From Fidelibacterota bacterium (GTDB taxonomy: Bacteria > Fidelibacterota > UBA8477), in assembly GCA_021734045.1 (NCBI GenBank), contig JAIPJR010000010.1:1-43418 (forward strand): a DNA stretch of 43,418 bases, in the 5' to 3' direction. Positions within the stretch are counted from its first letter, which is position 1. Every line of letters begins with the position of its first letter. This document shows positions 26,105-43,418 of the stretch, piece after piece. Below the pieces are notes generated by a model. The model saw nothing but the letters and a program-made list of their open reading frames with translations. It did not search any database and was not told where the DNA came from. The position numbers and the translations under genes were made by a program.

Positions 26105-29100
26105 TTAACGCATGAGTACCATCTTCCTGGTAGCAGTGAAGTCACTCGCGTTGATACGGTAGATATAAGTTCCGCTACTTACCAGGTTTCCGGTATTGTC
26201 CTTACCATCCCAGGTTACTGTGCGGTAACCGGCAGTCATGTATCCGTTTACCAGCGTCCTGACCGCCTGACCACGAATGTTGTAAATGGTCATGGTCACA
26301 TTGGATGCTTCCGGCAATCCAAAACGAATCTGGGTACTGGGGTTAAACGGATTGGGATAGTTCTGATCCAGGCTGAATTCCGTGGGAATCACACCGGCAT
26401 CCGCGACACTGACGATCATGGTGCTCACGACATTGGAAGCATCACTCACATTGCCGTTGGCGTCGACCGCTTTCACCATATAGTAATAGGTGTGTCCCGA
26501 TGCGATGTCATCATCCACAAAGGAGCTTTCTACCTGCAAAACCGGTGTCACACCAGTGAAATCGGAGCTCTCGCTGCGATAGACCTGGTAGTACTGGAAG
26601 TCGTCATCCAGGTTGGCATCCCACTCCACCGTAACGCCTTCCGGAGAACTGCTGGTAACGGCCAGATTCTGCGGTACTCCCGGGACGATATTATCGATGG
26701 AATACCCGGCCACCGGGTCACTATCCACATAGCTCCACATATCCGCGTGACCGGTAACCAGGAAGGTTGACCAGAAGTTGCCCTGAGGTCCTGTGGTGGC
26801 ATTGGAATCTACCAGCGTGGGTGCCACTACATTGTAGGCTTCCATGTCATTAAAGGCGACATAGTTCACATAATCCCAGATTTGGCCACCCGGAGTCTGG
26901 GTCATTCGCCAAATGCTGAAACCATGGTAGGGACCCCAGTCGGTTCCACCTGAGGTAAACCGCATGCGGACCCAGCGTCCCTGGTCATTGGGTTGATCCT
27001 GGACGAACATGATTTCAGGAGCGGTTGCCCAGTCGTGATAACTCAGAGTGAAGTCCACCTGAACTTCATTGTCATTCACATTGATATTGAACTGGGTGAC
27101 GGCATCATAATCCCAGCGACCTGCGGTGACATCGTACGAGCCATTGGGTACGCCGGCGTAGTATTCACCATCCCAGTTCGTATTCAAATAAAAGGCGATA
27201 TTTGAATCAACACGGCTCTGAATGTACACCCAGGCATCCTGAATTGGGGAATCGCCCTCTTCATCATACACCGTTCCATAGATTGCCCCGTCAAAACCCT
27301 GAAGGGCCACATCTACCTGAACCGTATCATTGTTCACATTGACATTGGTGTTCAAGTAGGGTTGATAATCAGGGTGGTAAACATTCAGGTGGTAATCGCC
27401 ATTCTCTACATCCAGCCAGTAGTTTCCATCCCAATCCGTCCAGGTTTGGTAGCCGATTGGAGATTCGGGGATGAACAGGATGACTTCAGCATCCACAATG
27501 GGTTCCTGCGTCTCCGCATTCACCACCTGCCCAAAGACCGCGCCATCGACGGACATTTCTTCCAGATAGAGGTCCACGGATACATTCCCGCTGACCCATA
27601 CGCTGTCAACAAATGCCGGCAGGTAGCCCTCATGGTAAGCTTCAACCTGGTATAAACCTTCCGGTAGTTCCACGCTGAAGTAACCGTTTTCATCCGATTG
27701 GAGGAAGTGCGAGAAGTCCATGCCGAAAATAGCAATATCCGTGTAGGGTAATGGTGATGGGGGGCCTTCATCACTGAAACCGTAGGTTGTACCGGTTATG
27801 GTACCGCCCACTTCGAACGGTGACAGATAGAAATCCCACTGTACCGATTCGTTATATACATAGATCTCATCCCACTCAGGGAGGTAACCAGGTGCAGTCG
27901 CACCTATCCAGAGGTCACCATTGGGAACGTCCATGTGGTAATAACCGTTTTCATCCGTAGAGGTGGAATTTCCCCAGGTTTCATTTCCCACGTTCACTTC
28001 AGCACCTGGAATGGGCGCGTTTGTGTCATTGTTATACACATACCCTTCCACGGCACTTTCAAAAATCATGGGATCCAGATAAAAATCATACCAGAGCATT
28101 TCACCAGAGATGACAATGGTATCCATCATGGAGAAGAGATACCCTTCAGCACCGGCAACGATTTGGTACATTCCATCCGGCAGGTACAGGGTGTATTCAC
28201 CCGTATCCCAATCGGGTCCAGTGTTATATTCCACGCCGGTACCCATATTCAGAGCCATCACACCTGCGAATGACGTAATGGGTTCCTCGGTTTGACTATC
28301 GTACAGGTACCCGGTAATGCCACCATTGACCGTTATGTATTCGATGACCTCACCAGTAGCCCCCGGCATGACATTAAAATTATCAGAGAGTTTCACCAGG
28401 TTTTCCATGGGACCGTCTATCCACATGTCCAGGTAATAGCCATTATCCACCGGCGTGTAGACCGGGATAGTAAAATTCCCTGACTCATCAGTTATGGTCA
28501 CACCGGTACCAACCATTTCATTCCAGGCAAATGCCACCACATCGGGCAGCGGATTGCCATCCAGCGTAACCTGACCGGTAATGGTGGAGTTGGACCGGAA
28601 GAGTGAAATATCGTGAGTGGCGCCAAATTCATCCACCATGACGAGATCTTCTTCGGGCACCAGGAACTCGGACGCGACCGATTCCCAATCGACACCAATC
28701 CAGTATTCGCCCGGATCAACAGGTGCTTCGTAATACCCGGTCTCATCGGTCCAGACCATCAAGTCATAATTATCAGTATCCACGTAAACACCGGCATCGG
28801 GAATGGGCGTGCCCATTTCATCTGTCACATAACCAGAGATTGAGGAACTGGGCTGACGATAAGTGAAGTCCACCACTGTGCTGGTGCTCCACACCGTTAC
28901 CTCAAGCTCAAAAGGATCAGGCAGCAGCCCGCCTGTGACCATGAGATGGTCGAAAGAACCCATGTAGTACGTCCCGGTATCGGGAACGAAGATGCTGTAT
29001 GTGCCATCATCATTGGTAATGTCGATGTATTCCGGTGGACCATCTTCGGCAAAAGGATCGCTCACCCAGACAACGATTCCCGGCAAGGGGTCACCCGTTC

Positions 29101-30298
29101 CCTCCAAGGTGACGGTTCCGCTTATCTCAAACGGCGTGGGATCCTGATAGAAGCTCACCGGTACGGAAGCATTCTCCCCGCCACTGAAAGCGGCAAAAAT
29201 GAATGTATCGGTAATGGCATTCAGACCCTCCGCCATCTCATCGGTATAGGTGAATCCGAAGACTCCCGGCGTCATATCTTCATCATGGATGTCATTGTCA
29301 CTGAATTCATACATATCAACCGGAATATCGAATTCAGTCAGCGTACCGGAATGGTCACTGTCCCAATAGATAACCAGTTCGCCATACGAGGGATCCGGCA
29401 TGGTCAATTCAAGGTAGGGATTCGATCCGATAGGCAATGTGGCAGTTGAATCACCATTTACAGTCATGACCATGGGGTCGGGCGGTGTGCCGTCAAACGT
29501 CGTCGTCCCATCAGCCTGATACATGTAGTCAAAAGTGAACCATGTATCCCAGGGTCCAACATCCGTCACTTCCAGCACCACATAGCAATTGGTTGTGCGG
29601 GTATAAACAACCCACAAGTTTCCTACTGCGAGCGGTTGACCGTTATTTCCGCCATTCCAGTCCCAGGAGATGGTGGTCCAGATTTGTTCAGGATCATCAA
29701 TTGCCGCAACCTGGCTGACCTCGTCCAGACTACCAGCTGCATCGTAGAAATACAATAAACTGGGATCGTCAAAGTTGGGATAGCCGGACCAGCCTTCATT
29801 CCCAAAATTGGTGCCTTCGTTGCCGGAGATCATCACATCCATCCCCGTGGAATCGGTACCGCCGGTACCATTCTCAAAATTGAAATAGATGAGTGAATCG
29901 GACAAGGACAGCATACCCGAGCCATAGACGACTTCCCGTTGGGAAAGCGGTGTCATGTCATTTGTGGGTATGGTAACCCCCTGCAGACGGTGCAGTTGAA
30001 TCCGTTTTTCCAACTTTGGCCGTGCTGCTTCCTCAGCAGGGGTCGTCGTAAGGCGCTTCTGCAGATTAACCCGCTCCAAGGTTTGAAATTGAGCAGGTGT
30101 TTGTTTTTGTGCTTTTGCGTTAAGCCGGATATTGTTGAGCTGTGTCTGCTCATTTTGCATCTGCCGCAGCTTCACGACCTTGTCCACACTGGTGGATGGG
30201 GTCGTGTCAGAAGTTGCATAGCTCAGAAGCGGCATAAGCATGACAAATCCGGCGACTGTCATGGCACACCAATTTCTAAGATTTTTGTTCGTAAACAT
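26105..30298 (-). CDS. Giant exported multidomain protein with type IX-like sorting tail
   Basis: The ATG at 30298 is chosen because AGGAGG precedes it and a normal signal peptide follows ([16 protein letters not shown], cut near residue 28); the product is 1397 residues. About residues 385-1090 hold eight carboxypeptidase-regulatory (transthyretin-like) repeats of roughly 85-90 residues, each opening with a motif such as [42 protein letters not shown] or [18 protein letters not shown] fibronectin type III domain follows near 1205-1295. The last ~80 residues are a sorting domain ([20 protein letters not shown], ending ATRKMVLMR) like those of type IX secretion cargo. The mature protein is strongly acidic and rich in Asp, Tyr, Trp and Gly. 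No catalytic domain was recognised, so a structural or adhesive surface role is the best guess. It has its own terminator and an unusual leader. Confidence 0.9.
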
Positions 30299-30317
30299 AA
30301 TTCGCCTCCTTGATAAT

Positions 30318-30389
30318 TTTGCGCAAATATCCACAATTATTTGTGGTTTAGGCTGTGATTTGACACACAGCCCGTGCGTTAAATCGCAC
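30318..30389 (-). promoter_or_regulatory. Four consecutive inverted repeats in the leader of the giant exported protein
   Basis: Within 72 bases upstream of the ribosome-binding site lie TTTGCGCAAA (30318-30327), CCACAATTATTTGTGG (30331-30346), GGCTGTG with CACAGCC (30351-30357 and 30366-30372), and GTGCG with CGCAC (30374-30378 and 30385-30389). Linkers are 1 to 4 bases. They could be operators or a row of RNA hairpins in the 5' leader. No known riboswitch was recognised. Confidence 0.6.
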
Positions 30390-30653
30390 AACTCTAAAAC
30401 TGTGTTATTTATGTGTTTACATTGGAGTCCCTCCCGTAGCGATTGAAGTTACGATGAAAATCGTTGACATTCAACAAATACAGGAGATGCAAATTGATGT
30501 TGTTATAACCAGCCGACGAATGGCAGATGGCTCGACCGGGATACAATTGGCCTAACAACCGGCGGGAAAATTCCTTAAACTTTCCGAACATGGAGCCAAC
30601 AATTTTACAGCGTGTTCTTTGCCTTCAAACTGTCCATTCAGGAGAAAAATTCT

Positions 30654-40786: not shown

Positions 40787-43418
40787 ATGAAGAAATTGGT
40801 ACCGGTTCGGTGGATCATCGCAGGACTGATGCTTTTCACCTCAGTAGCGTTTGCTGATGCAAAAATGCGTTCTACCGATGGATTGCAGTCTGCGGTGGAT
40901 GGTACAAAAGCGATTAACTGGCAGGCTGAGACAGTCGCCCCAACCAATACGCGGGATATTGATCTTGCGTATCATGATGGCTCCTTCGAGGGGCAGTTGG
41001 GTGTGAATGGCGGCGGTGCCGGTTTTGGTGTTCGTTTCACCCCGCCCGGCCCGGTGTTTCTCACGGGGCTTACACTCTATTTTCAGGGTGATGCCGGTGT
41101 AACTGCCGGAGTGGTCAGCGTGTACGCGGACCCGGATGCCAGCAAATATATTTGGTGATGAATTAACTGATTCACCAGCGTGTACGCGGACCCGGATGCC
41201 AGTGTGGCCGGACCGCCCACTGCTCCCACAGCCCCTGGTGATCCGGCGGCATTGTGGGAATCGGATCCCATGGATCTCTCCAGTCCTGATGGCAGTCTTG
41301 TCACCATCACGATTCCACTGGAAAATGTCCCTGTCAATGGCGGTGATTTTTATGTGGTGGTCTGGGATGACGGTGGCTTTATGGGTATAGCCAATGATCT
41401 TCAAATGAACCATTTGGACCGGAACTGGGTAACCCTGGGTGCCTGGTCCACCTTGAATGACGCAACGGCCGGGGATCCCACACTAACGGGTAATTTTGGC
41501 ATTACCGCCACCTACATGCCTCAGGACATTGAGGGCTCTTACATGGTGGTGGCGCCCACGACGCTGAATTTTGGCGTCCTGCAAATTGATGACGGTGCGG
41601 TTACACAGGATGTAACCATCTCAAATTTGGGTAACGCTCCTTTCGATATAACCGCTATCAATATTACCGGCGCTGACTTAACGACAAATTTAACGGCTCC
41701 GGTTACGGTTGCTGCCGAAACGGCTGTGACCATGGAAGTGACACTAACACCTACTGCTGAAGGCCCGTTTACCGGTTCAGTTGATCTTACCTCCGACGCT
41801 GACAATGCAACCTCAGCCACAGTGGATGTTTCCACTATGGTGTATGACGGATTCCCCGAATTCATGGTTTGGAATCCGTCCGGCTCTATCAGCGGTTCGG
41901 CTTTCGTAAGTACCTTGGAAGGACTGGGGTACACAGCATTTGAAACCACGGACATTTTTCAATTTGGTCCCCCGGTGGGTGCCGGATATACGGCTGTCTT
42001 CGTGACGCTGGGCATTTTTTCCGACAATTACGAACTGGTCCCGGGAAGCGCTGAAGTTGGTGCTCTGGTTGATTATGTTAATGCCGGTGGTGCCATTTAT
42101 ATGGAAGGTGGCGATACCTGGGCTTATGATGATGCCACAGCATTGCACGCCGTGTTCAATATTGATGGTGTGTCCGATGGTTCGGGAGACCTCACCTCTG
42201 TTGAAGGTGCTGATTTTGCCGAGGGAATGGATTACGCTTATTTCGGCGGAAACAGTTTTATGGATCATTTAGCGCCATTAACAGAAGAGTCCGTTACCAT
42301 TCACGTCAATCCGGCGGACGGATTTGGCTGTGGTGTTGCGTTTTTATCGCCCAATGGAAATACCATTGGGACTTCCTTCGAATTTGGCGGGTTGGAAGAT
42401 GGCGCTTCTACCAAGGCTGAGCTTCTCCAGGCTTACCTGGATTTCTTCGCGCTGCCTTACACAGATATTGTGAATCCGCATATCTCAGGTGTGACGCGTT
42501 TTGACTTCACCATGGATACGGCGGGACCGTATGTGATTGAAGCATTAATTACTGATAATACAGAATTGGCCGCAACATCACTGTATTACACCACTGACGG
42601 GAACACCTATACAGAAGTTCCTATGACGGACATGGGTGACGATGTGTACAGCGGTGATATACCGGGACAACCGGTAGGGACCACAGTTGGCTACTACGTG
42701 ATGGCTGAGGACACCAGTGGAAATTCCGCAGTTATGCCGGAAGAGGGTACCTATGCATTTAGTGTATTGTCTGCACTGCCCCCCGTGAACTTGCGGGCGG
42801 AATCCGGTTTGGACGGCCATTCTGTGCTGAATTGGGATCCCCCGGGAACCACAGCTCCACCCCAGTTGGATTGCGCTGATTACGTGATTGACGAGCTCCC
42901 CTATCAGGCTACTGGTACAACTGTGGGTATGGGCGATGACTTTGATGTGAATTTGACTGACAATGAAGATGTGGCTTATCAGCTCTATCTGCCGGACCCG
43001 TCGGTGATCACAATATCGTTGTGTGGCGGGACGGATTACGACTCCAAGCTGGAAGTATTCATGGATGATTGTAGTACCTCGACCGGTTACTACAACGATG
43101 ATGCTTGTGGTTTGCAATCGGAACTCTCCAACATAGAGCTGGATGCCGGAACCTACCTGATTGTTGTGGACGGTTTTAGCAGCGCGGCCGGTAATTACAC
43201 ACTGGATGTGACTTATTCTACTGCTGCCCGGAGCAATTTGGCTCAGCAGATTGACGATCTGGGATACGAGGTTCAGAAAATCCGCAGTGCTGAGCTAATG
43301 CCGGAAGAGATGGACATGAGTTCCGCCAGCCGTCATTACTACGAGCGGAATATCGTTATGGTACGCGAAATGGTGGACTATGGCATTTACCGCTCCACCA
43401 CCTCGCCGGTCATGCTGG
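40787..43418 (+). pseudogene. Large exported multidomain protein, frame interrupted by a 60-base insertion (3' partial)
   Basis: The ATG at 40787 follows AAGGAG and begins a signal peptide (IIAGLMLFTSVAFADA). Reading stops at TGA 41156 after 123 codons, but the same frame is open again from 41177 to the window end (747 codons). The stops lie in a 60-base insertion bounded by a 27-base direct repeat; without one unit the frame is continuous. Downstream domains are a choice-of-anchor-D/ASPM-like beta domain (LNFGVLQIDDGAV... ISNLGNAPFDI, about 41560-41840), a Rossmann-like segment (about 41860-42450, YVNAGGAIYMEGGD), a Tyr-rich beta domain (LYYTTDGNTYTEVPM), and a fibronectin-like segment followed by a pre-peptidase C-terminal-like domain (YDSKLEVFMDD ... 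AGTYLIVVDGFSSAAGNYTL). It resembles surface or secreted proteins of FCB bacteria, but no catalytic residues are recognised. It may be a pseudogene, a reversible allele or an assembly fault. Confidence 0.7.
41116..41202 (+). repeat. 27-base direct repeat with 33-base spacer inside the last gene
   Basis: Copies at 41116-41142 and 41176-41202 are identical over 27 bases; both begin CAGCGTGTACGCGG. The 33-base spacer starts with the palindrome CAAATATATTTG (41143-41154) and contains three in-frame TGA stops (41156, 41159, 41168). The 60-base period is a multiple of three. Confidence 0.97.

Follow-up and report, generated by a model that had tools for sequence, protein, structure and literature searches.

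A 33-bp phage-like insert with 27-bp flanking duplications in a giant adhesin gene of an uncultured Neomarinimicrobiota bacterium: a probable off-target CRISPR spacer integration

A gene for a giant secreted protein of an uncultured marine-type bacterium is interrupted by 33 bp that resemble phage tail or structural genes, and this insert is flanked by two exact copies of a 27-bp stretch of host coding sequence. We propose, with a probability of about three in four, that the gene was inactivated by off-target (non-canonical) integration of a CRISPR spacer by Cas1–Cas2. The host genome is a metagenome bin of Neomarinimicrobiota (2.54 Mb, 119 contigs, 92% complete), and the window, i.e. the whole stretch of DNA analysed here, is one entire contig (C71) of this bin with a length of 43,418 nt.

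RESULTS

Structure of the insertion and of the disrupted gene

The positions of the features are listed in Table 1. The two 27-mers have the sequence CAGCGTGTACGCGGACCCGGATGCCAG and form an exact repeat with a period of 60, and the 33-bp insert between them has the sequence CAAATATATTTGGTGATGAATTAACTGATTCAC. The open reading frame from the ATG at 40787 stops at 41158 after 123 codons, and the same frame reopens at 41180 and continues for 746 codons without a stop as far as the window end. An earlier sequence-only reading had reported identical 27-base copies around 33 bases with three in-frame TGA codons, a period of 60 and a frame open downstream to the end of the window, all of which agreed with our direct reading. 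It had also described a 60-base duplication-plus-spacer; the 27-base duplicate and the 33-base insert are correct, but 60 bases were not duplicated, because the insert is foreign. An alternative split into 28 + 32 bp is possible if positions 41201–41203, now AGT, read AGC in the ancestor. This split needs one later C-to-T change at 41203, where the relative L027 (see below) has C as part of AGC.

Table 1. Features of the disrupted locus in the window and intergenic repeats of the host genome
Feature	Position	Strand	Remarks
5΄ part of disrupted gene (signal peptide and 123 codons)	40787..41158	+	Terminated by the first TGA codon within the insert; in L027/L028, the intact orthologue has its start at the homologous ATG
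Copy 1 of 27-bp target-site duplication	41116..41142	+	Single copy in L027 and L028
33-bp insert (putative spacer), phage tail/structural-gene fragment	41143..41175	+	Encodes (S)NIFGDELTD(S)(Q/H) in its own frame
In-frame TGA codons	41156–41158, 41159–41161, 41168–41170 (span 41156..41170)	+	Codons 124, 125 and 128
Copy 2 of 27-bp target-site duplication	41176..41202	+	Exact match to copy 1
Rest of disrupted gene, choice-of-anchor D / ASH domain	41180..43418	+	Open up to the contig end
Intergenic repeats in host genome	L153 5701–6090, L163 2066–3760, L124 9087–9790, L159 176–780, L265 18993–19790		

In a scan of 2.15 Mb of the 2.54-Mb genome, coding DNA contained no second exact local 27-nt repeat of comparable type; therefore, the 27-mer repeat is not due to chance. 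The genome also contains long, near-identical tandem and interspersed repeats in intergenic regions, with units of 104, 243, 224, 366 and 63 nt, which are unrelated to the insert. The two 27-bp copies could later be reduced to one by recombination, and we saw no sign that this has occurred or been selected.

The orthologue in CG1_02_48_14 (L028/G002) has 2,982 residues and carries Cleaved_Adhesin, choice-of-anchor J, dockerin and T9SS-type C-terminal sorting domains. Judging from the interrupted frame, the insert has probably inactivated an adhesin gene of ~2,980 codons, and this giant secreted protein would not be made. The missing remainder of the gene was not found elsewhere in the host bin, and the contigs of both the window (at 43418) and the same-genus MAG Tobar14m-G39 (L027, at 10018) end inside this gene, which suggests that its downstream part is hard to assemble or variable. 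The minus strand of the window (26105–30391) encodes another large secreted protein of T9SS type, which has carboxypeptidase-regulatory-like repeats.

Empty sites in relatives and selection on the gene

Comparison with relatives had been suggested in the sequence-only reading, and it revealed the uninterrupted site. Tobar14m-G39 (L027/G001), the closest relative, has one copy of the 27-mer region without the 33-mer, and in CG1_02_48_14 the 27-bp stretch is likewise single and the filler absent. The window and L027 share about 82–89% DNA identity, and across ~2.4 kb of common coding sequence there is no indel besides the 60 bases. The gene is open in L027, in L028 and in those of the more distant orthologues that were checked for their frame, and the insert is absent from every relative examined. 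Judged from these orthologues, the site was uninterrupted and single-copy before the insertion.

We then compared substitutions on the two sides of the insert. The pairwise dN/dS between the window and L027 was 0.047 before the insert and 0.046 after it; with L028 as outgroup, nonsynonymous to synonymous changes numbered 19:87 on the window branch and 15:70 on the L027 branch (Fisher P = 1). Low dN/dS on both sides, together with the lack of an excess of amino-acid changes on the window branch, indicates that the event was recent, in which case the gene would have been under selection until very recently, or that the insert is not fixed. These values support the earlier claim of recent inactivation. 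An old pseudogene is ruled out by the lack of relaxed selection and of any other indel in the shared coding sequence; homologues with many other disabling changes, which had been named as evidence against the sequence-only reading, were not seen among the orthologues that were checked for their frame.

Origin of the insert

A 22-mer of the insert, CAAATATATTTGGTGATGAATT, matched four viral contigs in IMG/VR, and the exact match grows to 29 contiguous nucleotides in two of them (L275/L276). A degenerate scan for the amino-acid motif encoded by the insert found 22 contigs (L273–L294). In these contigs, all 33 nt of the insert align without gaps to phage genes (best 30/33, in L273–L276), and these genes encode GSNIFGDELTDxQQFTGS. 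The three mismatches to L275/L276 fall only at nt 30–32, i.e. the codon of the variable residue x, and nt 33 is the C of the next Q/H codon. The ORF in L273 matches a PHROG tail-spike family, the ORF adjoining the L275 gene matches tail-fibre families, and the sole INPHARED match is a protein of Microcystis phage Mel-JY01 that is annotated as structural. L273–L294 encode phage structural proteins of giant size in which SGSNIFGDE/QFTGS repeats occur by the dozen; most of these proteins have no PHROG family.

As a control, the reversed 22-mer gave 0 matches. For shuffled 33-mers, the best match within these phage loci was 23/33; since these loci were picked for the motif, the reversed-pattern control is the fairer one. 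No second copy of the insert was found in the host genome, and the motif was seen in no further genome among 22 related ones. Searches for an exact protospacer with a 28-mer and two inner 20-mers gave no matches, and BLAST of the whole insert against phages and plasmids returned only chance-level AT-rich matches. The one match of a scan for the Ser variant (L303) was attributed to chance, as no open ORF covers it in the matching frame.

Other sources of the filler were also considered. Copying from the host genome was rejected: the best match (20/21 nt) lies upstream of a tRNA-Leu gene in L103 and does not extend over the remaining part of the insert. This region (L103, 1481–1530) contains a hairpin, TTTGGTG...CACCAAA, just upstream of the tRNA-Leu gene, and the nucleotides that it has in common with the insert are probably shared by chance. 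An insertion sequence, MITE or other mobile repeat was rejected as well, given the lack of inverted ends and of a second copy in the genome. The explanation ranked first in the sequence-only reading, a recent duplication with filler DNA that silenced the gene, was thus right in its description and in the recency of the event, but it missed the identity of the filler, a fragment of a phage tail gene, and with it the likely mechanism.

Integration by Cas1–Cas2 and alternative explanations

The 33-bp (or 32-bp) insert is of spacer size for type I-E systems (32–33 bp), and the flanking duplication of exactly 27 bp (28 possible) is within one base of the 28-bp I-E repeat, although not identical to it. 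A geometry of 28 + 32 would correspond to type I-F, and 27 + 33 has one base less than I-E. We propose the following pathway. A Cas1–Cas2 integrase, probably with I-E or I-F geometry, would capture a 32–33-bp fragment of a phage tail or structural gene. Two staggered transesterifications ~27–28 bp apart would join this fragment to the inside of the host gene, not to the leader end of a CRISPR array, and gap filling would duplicate 27 bp on either side of the insert, as the repeat is normally duplicated. We favor this mechanism because a phage fragment of 32–33 bp with a target duplication of 27–28 bp is the expected product of the integrase; Cas1–Cas2 is the probable agent, and its subtype may be I-E or I-F. 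In E. coli type I-E, the protospacer measures 33 bp; the repeat, made up of 28 bp and one further base that stems from the spacer, is cut in a staggered manner and then duplicated (PMC10011333). Low-level integration by Cas1–Cas2 outside arrays occurs in vitro (PMC6895254), and a passage of PMC11788318, citing Nivala 2018, describes such integration in vivo when Cas1–Cas2 is overexpressed.

We searched for CRISPR components in the host and its relatives. Cas1, I-E Cas2, Cas3 above the cut-off and I-E repeats were not found in the 92%-complete MAG or in its two congeners (G000–G002; bins 82–92% complete), and no CRISPR array was found in 2.15 of the 2.54 Mb of the host genome. CRISPR loci are often lost in binning, and the bin misses ~8% of the genome; the missing cas genes therefore lower, but do not remove, the case for Cas1–Cas2. 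Elsewhere in the same order, cas1–cas2 are present in G004, G005, G007, G011 and G015, and the type I-E arrays have 29-nt repeats and spacers of 32 nt in all 40 distinct cases. Several Neomarinimicrobiota relatives (L182–L186) have such I-E (29/32) arrays; among these loci there are also one I-C-like array with a 32-nt repeat and one array with a 37-nt repeat and two cas1–cas2 pairs.

The insertion site itself was compared with these systems. On scoring, the likeness of the 27-mer to the I-E repeats of the order was not above background (38% of the 27-mers in the window were as alike), and a resemblance suggested by eye was not borne out. No IHF-like site was found beside the 27-mer, and the array spacers of the order did not match the phage contigs identified above. 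As PAM triplets, the phage genes related to the insert would give TTG or ATG on one side and (T/C)TC on the other, the exact protospacer not being among them. A CRISPR array proper was rejected, as the 27-mer is host coding sequence and there is a single spacer.

The same product, foreign filler with a flanking target duplication, could arise in an infected cell by repair of a staggered break, if overhangs of ~27 nt were filled in and end joining or template switching sealed the break around a phage fragment. Such repair needs no Cas1–Cas2, which was not found; however, Ku was not found either, which makes capture by classical NHEJ less likely, and the host genome offers no further copy of the filler as a template. 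Moreover, break repair sets neither filler nor overhang length, whereas both observed lengths are within one base of the CRISPR values. We regard it as unlikely. Less likely still is an artefact of assembly or strain mixture, in which the 60 bases would exist in no real chromosome. The genome comes from a metagenome bin of 119 contigs, and 27 could be an assembly k-mer length; nevertheless, an artefact would have to import a phage fragment and then resume exactly at the start of the same 27-mer, and neither a similar structure in 2.15 Mb nor a further indel across the 2.4-kb shared coding region was seen.

The sequence-only reading had also raised two functional explanations, neither of which gained support. 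An ON/OFF phase switch of the surface adhesin is very improbable: direct repeats of 27 bp placed 33 bp apart can recombine, and the gene is of surface-adhesin type and still under purifying selection, but the 33 bp, once deleted, cannot be regenerated, so that the switch would be one-way. In addition, the filler is phage DNA, all relatives examined lack the insert and no ON/OFF pair was observed. Translational bypassing as in phage T4 gene 60, with ribosomes skipping 60 nt from a codon in one 27-mer to its match in the other, is scarcely credible, since despite identical take-off and landing sequences and a weak hairpin (TGGTGA...TCACCA) within the gap, the repeat and gap are recent and lineage-specific, over 141 nt the region is no more stably folded than shuffled sequence (z –0.96), over 39 nt its folding is weak, and the gap is accounted for as phage DNA.

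DISCUSSION

CRISPR arrays are considered to be almost the only target of spacer acquisition. If off-target integration by Cas1–Cas2 is the correct explanation of this locus, the CRISPR machinery also causes mutations in host genomes under natural conditions, and the phage origin of such a mutation can be traced. The locus provides a search signature, namely a 27–29-bp duplication around 31–34 bp of phage-like DNA that is single-copy in relatives, which can be counted across public genomes. Counting would show the error rate of the integrase and whether new arrays begin in this manner. A more far-reaching view would regard the CRISPR integrase as a natural insertional mutagen with a selectable effect, the phage spacer having silenced a giant adhesin (possibly one to which phages attach) or given rise to a new CRISPR locus; we consider this speculative and improbable.

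The locus can be compared with several known systems. In phage tail and structural proteins with the GSNIFGDELTDxQQFTGS motif (IMG/VR L273–L294; Mel-JY01), which the insert resembles through the ungapped alignment described above, the motif is repeated in its own frame, whereas in the bacterium it is a 33-bp orphan outside the phage frame. The IS1202-type elements produce target duplications of ~27 bp and are thus alike in duplication length, but an insert of 33 bp falls far below the size of such an element and lacks inverted repeats at its ends. The I-E arrays of the order (G004, G005, G007 and G008) are similar in the length of the spacer (32, or 33 with the PAM-derived base) and of the repeat (28–29) and in that the repeat is palindromic; they differ in having a period of 61, whereas the insert locus has a period of 60 and its 27-mer is ancestral coding sequence, single-copy in relatives.

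The closest parallel is off-target integration by Cas1–Cas2. Nivala, Shipman and Church (2018, Nat Microbiol 3:310) reportedly found natural off-target spacer integrations in Yersinia pestis and Sulfolobus islandicus, and passages of PMC11788318 and PMC9456107 cite that study for non-canonical integration. The present locus shares with those cases a single, spacer-sized foreign insert outside arrays, with duplicated flanks of about repeat length. It differs in that the site is unlike the I-E repeats of the order, has no IHF-like motif and lies in a bin in which cas genes were not detected, and in that the insert is found in a natural, uncultured Neomarinimicrobiota genome, inside a coding gene that it inactivates. 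It is probably a rare further gene-disrupting case of off-target integration, from an uncultured phylum and with an identifiable phage gene family as its source.
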